Assembly (NCBI GenBank): GCA_947479755.1
Contig: CANKAM010000006.1
Location: 1-64,000, forward strand
From: Bacteroidota bacterium
GTDB taxonomy: Bacteria > Bacteroidota > Bacteroidia > SXHM01
Length of the DNA: 64,000 nucleotides
Reading direction: 5' to 3'
The position numbers and the translations under genes were made by a program. Below, in pieces: positions 41,244 to 44,978 of this stretch (its first letter is position 1; each line of letters opens with the position of its first letter). The notes beneath the pieces are model-generated. The model worked only from the letters and a program-made list of their open reading frames with translations, was not told the origin of the DNA and searched no databases.

Positions 41244-42656
41244 ATGAACTATACTAAAGTAACACCTCAAATTCTTGAACTATTCAAAAATATTGTTGGT
41301 AACGAATTTGTCTTTGTTGATGCCGAAACGCTCGAAATAAATGCTTCTGACGAAACAGAAGATCATAAATTTATTCCTGAAGTAGTAATAAAACCTGCTA
41401 ATGCCGAAGAAATTTCGCAGATAATAAAAATCTGCAACGAGGCATTTATTGCCGTCACACCTCGGGGAGGCGGAACAGGTTTAAGCGGTGGCGCTTTGCC
41501 ATTGGCAGCAGGTGTTGTGCTCTCCACCGAACGACTTAATAAGATTATAGAAATAGATGAACGCAACCTGCAGGCAACTGTTGAACCGGGAGTAATCACC
41601 GAAGTTTTTCAAAATGCCGTAAAAGAAAAAGGCTTGTTTTATCCGCCCGACCCGAGCAGCCGTGGAACTTGCTTCCTGGGAGGAAATTTAGCGGAGAATG
41701 CAGGCGGACCAAAAGCAGTAAAATATGGAGTTACCCGCGATTATGTTTTGAATATGGAAGTGGTTTTGCCAACAGGTGACATAATAAAAACTGCGGCCAA
41801 TGTTTTAAAAAACTCAACAGGTTATAACCTTACACAACTGATGTGCGGCAGCGAAGGAACGCTGGGCATCATCACCAAAATAGTTTTCAAGCTTCGTCCG
41901 CTGCCGCAGAAAGATGTAACGCTGCTGGTTCCATTTTCTACTTCTGAAGAAGCGTGTCGCGGCATTACTGCGGTATATATGGCCGGAATAAATCCATCAG
42001 GAATGGAGTTTGTAGAGCGCGAAGCAATCGTAAAGACAAAAAAATATTTAGAAGATTTAGGCAAAGGAGTAAATATTGATTTACCTGACGGAATCAATGC
42101 ACACCTGATTATTGAACTGGACGGAAATGATGAAGAAGCCTTGATGAAGGATGCCGAAAAAATTATGACAACGCTTGCTGATTATGAAACCGGTGAAATT
42201 CTTTTTGCTGATTCGGATCAACAGAAAGAAGAGCTGTGGCGACTGCGCAGAAATGTTTCTCCGGCAGTAAATGCATATTCCCTTACCAAAGCAGAAGATG
42301 TGGTGGTTCCTCGTGCTGCACTTCCCGCATTGATTACTTCTGTGAAAGAAATCGGAAGCGAATATAAATTCAACTCGGTTTGTTACGGACACGCAGGTGA
42401 CGGCAATCTGCACATCAACATCATGAAAGAACAATTGAGTGATGAATGGTGGAACAAAGAAGTGAACGAAGGAATTGCAAAAATCTTTAAACGCGTTGTA
42501 GAATTAGGCGGAACGCTTTCAGGTGAACACGGAATAGGAATTGCCAAACGTCCCTACATGTCGCTTGCAATGGGCGAAGTAAACCTGAACCTTATGCGCG
42601 GCATCAAAAAAGTATTTGACCCGAAAGGAATTTTAAATCCCGGAAAAATTTTCTGA
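41244..42656 (+). CDS. FAD-linked oxidase, GlcD/D-lactate dehydrogenase type
   Basis: The product has 470 residues. The FAD-binding PCMH domain (VTPRGGGTGLSGGALPLAAG, FYPPDPSSRGTCFLGGNLAENAGG, GSEGTLGIITKIVFKLRPL) and the C-terminal cap (SVCYGHAGDGNLHINIM, GTLSGEHGIGIAKRPYM) are intact. The family oxidises 2-hydroxy acids such as glycolate or D-lactate; the substrate is open. No GlcE/GlcF partner is near, which favours a single-subunit D-lactate dehydrogenase-type enzyme. It is divergent from dnaE. Confidence 0.93.
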   Translation: MNYTKVTPQILELFKNIVGNEFVFVDAETLEINASDETEDHKFIPEVVIKPANAEEISQIIKICNEAFIAVTPRGGGTGLSGGALPLAAGVVLSTERLNKIIEIDERNLQATVEPGVITEVFQNAVKEKGLFYPPDPSSRGTCFLGGNLAENAGGPKAVKYGVTRDYVLNMEVVLPTGDIIKTAANVLKNSTGYNLTQLMCGSEGTLGIITKIVFKLRPLPQKDVTLLVPFSTSEEACRGITAVYMAGINPSGMEFVEREAIVKTKKYLEDLGKGVNIDLPDGINAHLIIELDGNDEEALMKDAEKIMTTLADYETGEILFADSDQQKEELWRLRRNVSPAVNAYSLTKAEDVVVPRAALPALITSVKEIGSEYKFNSVCYGHAGDGNLHINIMKEQLSDEWWNKEVNEGIAKIFKRVVELGGTLSGEHGIGIAKRPYMSLAMGEVNLNLMRGIKKVFDPKGILNPGKIF

Positions 42657-42690
42657 TTAGTCGGCTTACCCCTGCTCTATTTCTGAAAAA

Positions 42691-42704
42691 CTGATAAAAA
42701 TCAG
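42691..42704. promoter_or_regulatory. FNR-like dyad CTGAT-AAAA-ATCAG
   Basis: Perfect 5-4-5 inverted repeat matching TGATnnnnATCA, the core of FNR sites. Its centre is about 64 bases before the start site expected from the -7 box at 42750, near the class I activator position. Confidence 0.45.
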
Positions 42705-42713
42705 CAAACAATG

Positions 42714-42730
42714 ATGATGACGGTCATCAT
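42714..42730. promoter_or_regulatory. Operator-like dyad ATGATGAC-G-GTCATCAT
   Basis: Perfect 8-bp inverted repeat around one base. Its centre (42722) is about 39-41 bases before the expected start site, the usual class II position of Crp/FNR activators. Confidence 0.5.
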
Positions 42731-42749
42731 TGCAGCCCTTTGCGTCCCA

Positions 42750-42757
42750 TAGTTTTG
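42750..42757 (+). promoter_or_regulatory. -7 box TAGTTTTG of the TerB-like/hemN operon
   Basis: Exact TAnnTTTG match 25 bases before the ATG at 42775. It lies downstream of the two dyads and before three tightly packed genes ending in hemN. Confidence 0.5.
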
Positions 42758-42774
42758 TAAATAAATACAAAGCC

Positions 42775-43179
42775 ATGATTATACGTAACTATTATAAAGA
42801 ATTAGGCAAACTGCTTTATGCAGTTGCCAAAGCAGACGGAAAAATAAATCCACATGAAGCAGAAGAACTGAAGAGGATTATAAAATCTGAATTGGTCCCT
42901 GCCGAAAAAGAAACAGATGAGTTTGGAACTGATACTGCTTTCTATATCGAATTTGAGTTTGATATCTACGAAGAAATGGACATAGATGCTGATGTGGCAT
43001 ATGATTCATTCATTTCATTTGTAAAAGAACACAACAACTATGTAACGCTGGAAATGCGGGAGAAAGCATACTATTTAGCTACAAATGTTTGTGATGCTTT
43101 CAAAGGCAAAAACAAAGCTGAGAAAAATCTTATTACACGTTTAAAAAAAGATTTACAACTGAATAAATACATCCTATAA
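42775..43179 (+). CDS. TerB-like protein
   Basis: ATG 42775 gives 134 residues; the longer frame starts at TTG inside the promoter. The sequence LGKLLYAVAKADGKINPHEAEELKRII is the TerB/DjlA-type helical metal-binding segment, with an acidic Asp in AKADGKI. A long acidic stretch (IEFEFDIYEEMDIDADVAYD) follows. TerB-like domains occur in tellurite and stress modules; the role here is unknown. It heads an operon with a protein of unknown function and hemN. Confidence 0.8.
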   Translation: MIIRNYYKELGKLLYAVAKADGKINPHEAEELKRIIKSELVPAEKETDEFGTDTAFYIEFEFDIYEEMDIDADVAYDSFISFVKEHNNYVTLEMREKAYYLATNVCDAFKGKNKAEKNLITRLKKDLQLNKYIL

Positions 43180-43180
43180 C

Positions 43181-43618
43181 ATGAACAGAAAAAACAAAAC
43201 AGGCATTTGGATTGACCACAAACGTGCTGTAATCATAAACTTCAATGAAAAAAATGAAGAGAAAGACTACTTCATTGAATCTGGATTTGAAGGAAAAGAA
43301 AGGGAAGACGGAGAAGACCGCAACAAAAATAATGCACGCATGGGTTCGCATTATATAAGTGATGAAACAGGATTTGAAAACAGACATAAAGAGTTGTTGC
43401 GCAAGTTTTATCTTGAAGTAATTCTCCGCATCAGCGAAGATGCTGAACTGTATATTTTTGGTCCTGCTGAAGCAAAAAATGAACTTGCTTCAAAAATCAG
43501 AAATTACGAGTCTTTAAAAATACTCATCACTAAAATTGAAGCTGCAGACCGCATGACAGACAAAGAGGCAGCTGCAAAAGCAAGAGAATATTTTCACGTT
43601 GAAAAATTAGCAGCCTGA
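43181..43618 (+). CDS. Small protein of unknown function, eRF1/host-attachment-like
   Basis: The product has 145 residues. It starts MNRKNKTGIWIDHKRAVIIN and contains ELYIFGPAEAKNELASKI, a pattern like the Rossmann-type domain at the C-terminus of archaeal/eukaryotic release factor 1 and of bacterial host-attachment-type proteins. A charged middle (EGKEREDGEDRNKNNAR) probably forms a loop. It is one base behind the TerB-like gene and one base before hemN, so the three are surely one transcript. No enzymatic residues are evident. Confidence 0.65.
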   Translation: MNRKNKTGIWIDHKRAVIINFNEKNEEKDYFIESGFEGKEREDGEDRNKNNARMGSHYISDETGFENRHKELLRKFYLEVILRISEDAELYIFGPAEAKNELASKIRNYESLKILITKIEAADRMTDKEAAAKAREYFHVEKLAA

Positions 43619-43619
43619 A

Positions 43620-44978
43620 ATGAACAAGTTGCTTATCAGCAAATACAATGTTCCGGGTCCACGCTATACGAGTTACCCTACTGTTCCCTATTGGGAAAAT
43701 AATCTTACAACGGAAACATGGAAGGGACAAGTATTAGATGCTTTCCGTCAAACAAATGATAGTGAAGGAATAAGCCTTTACATTCATTTGCCTTTTTGCG
43801 AAAGCCTTTGTACTTATTGCGGTTGTAATACACGTATAACCGTTAATCATGCTGTTGAGCGTCCTTATATTGATGCTTTGCTGAAAGAGTGGGCAATGTA
43901 TCTGGATACTTTTCAGGAAACTCCACGCATCAAGGAAATACACCTTGGCGGTGGAACTCCTACTTTTTTCAGTCCCGAAAATCTTGCTGTTTTAATGGAA
44001 GGAATTATTTCTTCCGGACATCTGTTAAAAGATGCGCAACTCAGTTTTGAAGCACATCCCAACAATACAACAAAAGAACATCTTGAAACGCTTTATTCAG
44101 TTGGCTTCAGACGTTTGAGTTTAGGAATACAGGATTTTGATACGCTTGTACAAAAAGCAATTCATCGTCTGCAAAGTTTTGAGCAGGTGAAAAATATAAC
44201 AGAGCTAGCCCGCGAAATCGATTTCACTTCTGTGAACTACGATTTGATTTACGGCTTGCCTTTTCAAACTGTAGAAAGTATTACCGATACAATTGACAAA
44301 GTAAAACTGCTTCGCCCCGATCGCATTGCATTTTACAGCTACGCCCATGTTCCATGGATAAAACCTGCACAGCGCGGCTATTCTGATAGTGATTTACCGC
44401 AACCCGAAACTAAACGTAAACTTTACGAGACCGGAAGAGAGATGCTTGAATGGGCTGGATACTTAGAAATTGGAATGGACCATTTTGCACTACCCACTGA
44501 TTCGCTTTTCAAAGCAGCAGGAACAGGAAACCTGCACCGTAATTTTATGGGCTACACTTCCGGCAAAACACGTTTGCTGATTGGTTTGGGGGTTTCATCC
44601 ATCAGCGACAGCTGGACTGCCTTTGCTCAAAATGTAAAAACTGTGGAAGGCTACATAGAAAAAATAAATGCAGGTGAATTGCCTGTTTTTCGGGGACATT
44701 TGCTCACAGCAGAAGATTTAATTTTGCGACAACACATTCTCAATATTATCTGCAAAGGCGAAACATCATGGCAACGAGAAGATGAGCAATGCAATGCTCT
44801 TTATTCCACGCTGGAACAACTGGAAGAATTAGAACATGATAAGTTGGTTAACATCATTCCCTTTCATTTGAAAGTTACAACTACCGGAAAAAATTATATC
44901 CGCAATATCTGCATGGCATTTGATGCAAAGTTGCGCAGAAGTCAGCCGCAAGCGCAGCTGTTTTCTCAAACGGTTTAG
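43620..44978 (+). CDS. hemN: Oxygen-independent coproporphyrinogen III oxidase
   Basis: The product has 452 residues, the length of true HemN rather than HemW. It has YTSYPTVPYWE at the start and the radical-SAM motif FCESLCTYCGCN (Cys60, Cys64, Cys67, plus Cys69). LGGGTPTF and the C-terminal HemN domain follow (DHFALPTDSLFKAAGTGNLHRN FMGYTSGK, GLGVSSISDS). It makes protoporphyrinogen IX without O2. FNR-like dyads upstream of the operon fit control by oxygen. The end overlaps the converging membrane-protein gene by four bases. Confidence 0.95.
   Translation: MNKLLISKYNVPGPRYTSYPTVPYWENNLTTETWKGQVLDAFRQTNDSEGISLYIHLPFCESLCTYCGCNTRITVNHAVERPYIDALLKEWAMYLDTFQETPRIKEIHLGGGTPTFFSPENLAVLMEGIISSGHLLKDAQLSFEAHPNNTTKEHLETLYSVGFRRLSLGIQDFDTLVQKAIHRLQSFEQVKNITELAREIDFTSVNYDLIYGLPFQTVESITDTIDKVKLLRPDRIAFYSYAHVPWIKPAQRGYSDSDLPQPETKRKLYETGREMLEWAGYLEIGMDHFALPTDSLFKAAGTGNLHRNFMGYTSGKTRLLIGLGVSSISDSWTAFAQNVKTVEGYIEKINAGELPVFRGHLLTAEDLILRQHILNIICKGETSWQREDEQCNALYSTLEQLEELEHDKLVNIIPFHLKVTTTGKNYIRNICMAFDAKLRRSQPQAQLFSQTV

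Follow-up and report, generated by a model that had tools for sequence, protein, structure and literature searches.

Palindromes and promoter box in front of the TerB-like gene

The window, that is, the whole 64-kb stretch of DNA analysed here, contains an intergenic stretch of 118 bp that extends from the stop codon of an FAD-oxidase gene (42656) to the start of a TerB-like gene (42775). Two palindromes and a promoter box lie within it, and they are followed by the three genes of a putative operon:

42691..42704, no strand assigned: upstream Crp/Fnr-type site CTGATAAAAATCAG (CTGAT-AAAA-ATCAG), predicted centre -64.5
42709..42732, no strand assigned: downstream Crp/Fnr-type site CAATGATGA-N6-TCATCATTG, centre 42720.5, predicted -41.5 (class II position)
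42750..42757, + strand: TAGTTTTG, which fits TAnnTTTG, the -7 box of Bacteroidota, and is identical in 6/6 genus genomes
42762, + strand: predicted transcription start, from the -12 to -5 placement of TAnnTTTG
42775..43179, + strand: TerB-like gene (134 aa) that opens the putative operon; its Pfam TerB score of 21.6 bits falls short of the cut-off of 24.4
43181..43618, + strand: eRF1-like (baeRF-like) gene, 145 aa, with no Pfam match of its own
43620..44978, + strand: hemN, oxygen-independent coproporphyrinogen III oxidase; TIGR00538 438.5 bits, cut-off 324.95

The TerB-like protein shows 26% and 28% identity (BLASTP) to the above-cut-off TerB proteins of genomes G075 and G020. The eRF1 label of the second gene is weak, because L018 is its sole homologue that matches baeRF_family5, with 24.1 bits under a cut-off of 27.

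Both palindromes fit the TGA-N6-TCA half-site geometry of Crp/Fnr-type operators. The core of the upstream site is TGATAAAAATCA (42692-42703, centre 42697.5), and the downstream site consists of 9-bp arms around tgacgg, with its core, TGATGACGGTCA, at 42715-42726. With their outer letters, the two sites read CTGAT-N4-ATCAG and ATGAT-N4-GTCAT, respectively. Re-reading of the sequence bore out the letters and coordinates that an earlier sequence-only reading had given for both dyads. That reading had described the second dyad as ATGATGAC-G-GTCATCAT (42714-42730, centre 42722). Although this palindrome is perfect, a pair of longer arms lies 1.5 bp to the left. We rejected the 8-1-8 register as the conserved unit of this dyad: it is kept in four of the six genus genomes and lost in G005 and G003. 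A third TGA-N6-TCA (TGACGGTCATCA, 42718-42729) overlaps the second dyad through a trinucleotide repeat, and is kept in the same four genomes. At the expected distance from the box, no clear -33 TTTG was seen at the window promoter.

The sequence-only reading had tied its interpretation to the conservation of the dyads in related species, and such conservation was found. The downstream core and the spacing of exactly 23 bp to TAGTTTTG are present in all six genus genomes aligned, the core keeping TGA-N6-TCA although the outer letters vary. The upstream TGA-N6-TCA is kept in five of the six; in G005 (78% complete) it is degraded and reads TGAGAATAATCT.

According to a report on Flavobacterium psychrophilum, the TAnnTTTG box spans -12 to -5 (PMC9723704). 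Because of this placement, we predict +1 at 42762 and site centres at -41.5 (downstream) and -64.5 (upstream), close to the -40 and -64 of the sequence-only reading. One Crp/Fnr-family dimer would then lie at -41.5, in contact range of RNA polymerase (class II), and a second, centred at -64.5, would be displaced from it by 23 bp in the upstream direction, which is some two turns of the helix, and would occupy nearly the same face.

Recurrence of the sites and the genes behind them

How widespread is this arrangement? The genome-wide figures rest on pattern searches and sequence stretches. In the own genome, the pattern ATGA-N6-TCAT-N{18,26}-TAnnTTTG gave eight matches at seven distinct places, with none in the control, and the gap is 22, which equals -41.5, in six of these seven places. 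When up to two mismatches were allowed at gap 22, there were 112 matches versus 57 in the control, so that this mismatch set is enriched only about twofold. Across 119 class genomes, site and box at gaps of 15-30 gave 444 matches versus 129 in the control; among the 150 matches listed, a gap of 22 occurs 53 times, 23 occurs 22 times and 24 occurs 11 times, and the other gaps occur one to ten times each.

The pairing of the sites recurs as well. A pattern in which the first dyad was TGATN4RTCA only, followed by TGAYN4RTCA within 30 bp, gave 208 strand matches in 45 class genomes versus 16 in the control. Among the 102 distinct places listed, the offset is 22 in 51 and 23 in 11 (62 together), and every other offset occurs zero to four times; G000, G001, G004 and others count toward the total of strand matches without having places among the matches listed. 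In the own genome, a 22-bp pair with up to two mismatches occurs at 32 places (control, seven), eight of them exact, and the window pair, with its offset of 23, comes on top of this set. The window as a whole holds nine TGAYN4RTCA dyads and only one pair spaced 22/23 bp, namely the one described here. Boxes of the form [TC]AnnTTTG near a pair stand at gap 23 in 9 of 13 cases, the window included, at the own-genome loci scanned. We read the two sites as members of a single element that turns up again across the class, in many related bacteria ahead of genes for respiration at low oxygen.

A search for such sites before other anaerobic genes, which the sequence-only reading had recommended, revealed pairs at cbb3 oxidase, nosZ and RIC genes. 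More specifically, own-genome pairs precede the genes for a fused COX1-FixO (ccoN-ccoO) protein and a FixP/ccoP-type cytochrome, a heavy-metal P-type ATPase gene that adjoins the cco genes (ccoI-like by context only), universal stress protein (Usp) genes, the gene for the iron-sulfur repair protein RIC, and a cytochrome c gene that is followed by NosZ. Another lies in a divergent region with Usp on one side and ArsR, a kinase and a receiver-Crp fusion (REC-CRP) on the other. A NarK-like gene on contig C1, near narG and moaA, also has a pair in front of it, with an offset of 23 and the box at gap 24. Exact pairs also precede or flank the genes for a T9SS-tail protein and uncharacterised proteins.

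The connection of the TerB-like and eRF1-like proteins with low-oxygen physiology, which the sequence-only reading had put forward, gains support from paired sites in other families. One example is G020, from a different family: its TerB gene (29.1 bits, above the cut-off) is immediately preceded by a pair and has Usp genes around it, and an eRF1-like gene 4 kb further on has a pair of its own. At the gap expected, the -7 boxes of both promoters are not perfect matches. The TerB gene of G075 (27.1 bits) has hemN on one side and the kinase-fusion genes on the other, and is preceded by one TGA-N6-TCA. A pair also precedes the eRF1-like gene of G019, and the corresponding gene of G059 has a site that a box follows at gap 23. 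Overall, the 13 eRF1-like loci outside the genus comprise two with pairs (L015, L027), one with a site and a box at gap 23 (L021), two with a site and no box at the right distance (L017, L020), and eight with none. At hemN itself, we read 30 loci, six of them from the genus, and only three of the other 24 carry sites immediately before the gene: a pair with an offset of 23 and a box at gap 23 (L114), a pair with an offset of 22 without an exact box (L122), and a single site with a box at gap 23 (L124). At many of the other non-genus loci, hemN closely follows another gene. As judged from these promoters, a connection of the TerB-like and eRF1-like genes with low-oxygen genes has support in several families, but it is not universal.

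Some further features of these regions were observed. At L179:14794-16920, CcoN and CcoO are encoded in one ORF (COX1 and FixO), and G010 has an ORF of similar size. At L179:7530-7585, three TGA-N6-TCA sites stand in a row, in steps of 22 bp, between the divergent Usp and ArsR-kinase-fusion genes. The ORF at L036:5225-6952 (G000:C1) joins a NarK-like MFS nitrate transporter to a C-terminal universal stress protein domain in a single frame. The surrounding region, G000:C1:96000-177000 (L036-L038), carries narG, the NarK-like gene, moaA, a NorB-type NO reductase gene, several Crp/Fnr genes and many single-site promoters.

Candidate regulators and alternative explanations

Which protein might act at the pairs? 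The sequence-only reading had advised looking for an FNR/Crp homologue, and the own genome encodes seven proteins with a cNMP-binding domain, three of which (L002, L003 and L004) have an E..xR recognition helix. In CRP and FNR, a helix of this kind reads TGA. The same reading of TGA appears in a published analysis (PMC1274295). L002 has FNR-like cysteines (CxxCx8C and an internal Cys) and the helix TETAIR, L004 has the helix YETTVR and is sited in the nitrate/NO gene region, and L003 is the REC-CRP fusion, with Response_reg, cNMP and HTH_Crp_2 domains. By eye, the L003 sequence lacks an N-terminal Fe-S cysteine cluster and contains one Cys only, in the receiver domain. A further protein, L005, has FNR-like cysteines but the recognition helix SYVNK; its gene has a gap-22 site of its own upstream (G000:C1:166009-166052).

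The fusion gene lies beside the gene for a PAS histidine kinase (PAS_9, HisKA, HATPase_c), next to the cbb3 oxidase genes. The second PAS domain of this kinase best matches the PDB chain 3ewk_A, and also matches an aerotaxis receptor and a nitrogen-fixation regulatory protein; these matches hint at redox sensing. Within the genus, the fusion is found in six of seven genomes, including G004 (91% complete) and G006 (87% complete), which keep the TerB promoter sites; it was not found in G005, the genome in which the upstream site is lost. For L002 and L004, the search turned up orthologues in G000, G001 and G003 only, and none in G004 or G006. This distribution favours the fusion as the regulator, as support and not as proof, because G004 and G006 are incomplete and G006 has one further, unlisted Crp/Fnr match.

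In the class, the fusion is present at full length in 64 of 118 genomes (E <= 1e-50), although a few of these copies are partial or broken (e.g., in G061). Of 30 loci with the fusion, 28 have the kinase gene next to it and all encode the E..xR helix; a pair lies inside the locus of about 3-4 kb in 16, a Usp gene in seven and a P-type ATPase gene in six. In G042, G034 and G075, the kinase and the fusion lie beside hemN. Fusion-bearing genomes make up 23 of the 45 searched, and hold 58 of the 62 listed pairs; the four listed pairs without a fusion match are in G038 (two), G009 and G008. The pair pattern, with the first dyad TGATN4RTCA only, is unmatched in the fusion-bearing G013, G014 and G027. 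Separately, a Crp/Fnr-type gene with the helix NETTIR lies directly upstream of hemN in G028 (L120, C274).

Two alternatives concern the palindromes as such. That they arose by chance in an AT-rich spacer is scarcely credible: in 20,000 dinucleotide shuffles of the 118-bp intergenic stretch, a single TGAYN4RTCA dyad did appear 157 times, but a dyad 22-24 bp from TAnnTTTG appeared once and a TGAYN4RTCA pair spaced 22/23 bp never, and the conservation in the genus and the class-wide spacing peak also argue against chance. It is likewise very improbable, if a little less so, that the dyads act at the RNA level, as hairpins that terminate the transcript of the upstream FAD-oxidase gene or regulate the mRNA of the operon. 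They do come after the stop codon at 42656, and the stretches 42705-42740 (-12.2 kcal/mol, z -3.34) and 42686-42710 (-3.7, z -9.03) fold; however, any palindrome folds, neither stem is followed by a U-run, the box comes after both of them, and unrelated genes are preceded by the same fixed offset of 22/23 bp and the same box distance of 23 bp.

The alternative with the most in its favour is that a classical FNR/DNR-type protein, L002 or L004, binds the pair and that the REC-CRP fusion acts elsewhere. The FNR-like cysteines of L002 and the TETAIR and YETTVR helices are consistent with this, as are the clustering of single-site promoters with nitrate and NO reductase genes on contig C1 and the pairs in G008, G009 and G038, in which the fusion was not matched; a pair of G009 (C2:223211-223244) adjoins an FNR-like gene. 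In contrast, L002 and L004 orthologues were not found in the site-keeping G004 and G006, and pairs lie at the fusion's own gene region and at the ccoI-like and cco genes. On balance, we regard this explanation as unlikely, though it deserves to be taken seriously.

We consider it probable, from the evidence of the sequence, that 42691-42757 is a paired activator element with its promoter, at which Crp/Fnr-family dimers, most likely of REC-CRP, would switch on the TerB-like/eRF1-like/hemN operon at low oxygen or redox potential. The activator would be phosphorylated by the neighbouring PAS kinase, and the operon would be turned on when oxygen or redox potential drops. A low-oxygen signal is suggested because of the gene company and because cbb3 oxidase and haem synthesis are reported to go up in F. 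psychrophilum when oxygen is limiting (PMC9723704). The best reading of the pairs in general is that they mark a low-oxygen/redox regulon, the likeliest driver of which would be the kinase with the REC-CRP fusion, and not a classical FNR; against it, some own-genome pairs precede genes without an evident low-oxygen role (the T9SS-tail protein and two uncharacterised proteins). The FNR-type control envisaged by the sequence-only reading is thereby retained in part: the sites are of the Crp/Fnr type (TGA-N6-TCA), but the likeliest regulator would be the fusion rather than a classical Fe-S FNR.

Comparison with known systems and biological meaning

The anaerobic regulons of FNR in Escherichia coli and of Anr-Dnr in Pseudomonas have TTGAT-N4-ATCAA sites, a class II position, and respiratory and hemN-type targets. 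The system proposed here shares with them the TGA-N6-TCA geometry, the class II position (predicted in our case) and the hemN-type and respiratory targets (putative in our case). It differs in that the outer base is not fixed as T and the sites do not match TTGAT-N4-ATCAA, in that the sites are paired at a spacing of 22/23 bp and accompany a TAnnTTTG promoter, and in that the favoured REC-CRP lacks the FNR cysteine set. One report includes hemN among Anr boxes (PMC6588701). We do not assign the system to classical FNR, because its favoured regulator has no such set of cysteines and its sites depart from the FNR type in their outer bases.

In the rhizobial FixLJ-FixK cascade, a PAS kinase, a receiver and a Crp-type output control cbb3 oxidase and hemN targets (see PMC7888657). 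Here, too, a PAS kinase is encoded with a receiver protein, the DNA-binding output is of the Crp type, and the putative targets include cbb3 and hemN. However, the rhizobial cascade has a separate FixJ (receiver-LuxR) and FixK (Crp), whereas here one fused protein carries both receiver and Crp output and would combine the two steps. A haem PAS oxygen sensor is a further mark of the rhizobial cascade; the second PAS domain of the own kinase has 3ewk_A as its best match. Because of the fusion, the system is not FixLJ-FixK as described. By analogy, the window element would work like FNR/FixK control. HcpR/HcpR2 of Bacteroides is likewise a Crp/Fnr regulator in Bacteroidota, but its motif and gene set differ: PMC1274295 gives GTAACnnnnGTTAC as the HcpR2 motif and mostly hcp as the targets.

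Within the open-access literature searched, we found no description, for Bacteroidota, of a receiver-Crp fusion or of a Crp/Fnr regulon that responds to oxygen and uses such a paired operator. In one study of Flavobacteriales and Saprospiraceae genomes, Crp/Fnr homologues were ascribed to the sensing of carbon, and no sign that they control denitrification was seen (PMC8510549).

We tentatively propose, as a possibility with slightly less behind it than against it, that many Bacteroidia use a low-oxygen switch in which a PAS kinase would signal to a REC-CRP, with the roles of FixJ and FixK fused, and this protein would bind an operator of its own, a pair of TGA-N6-TCA sites spaced 22/23 bp whose downstream member is centred at -41.5. 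The genes so controlled would be those for cbb3 oxidase and its metal ATPase, hemN and nosZ, those for iron-sulfur repair and universal stress proteins, and those of two families of small, poorly understood proteins, TerB-like and eRF1/baeRF-like. A defined operator with a fixed spacing makes the regulon reading directly testable. The element also provides the first physiological lead seen in this analysis for the TerB-like and eRF1-like proteins: if the proposal is true, the TerB-like and eRF1/baeRF-like proteins would serve under low oxygen, and the eRF1/baeRF-like ones might act on ribosomes as respiration declines.
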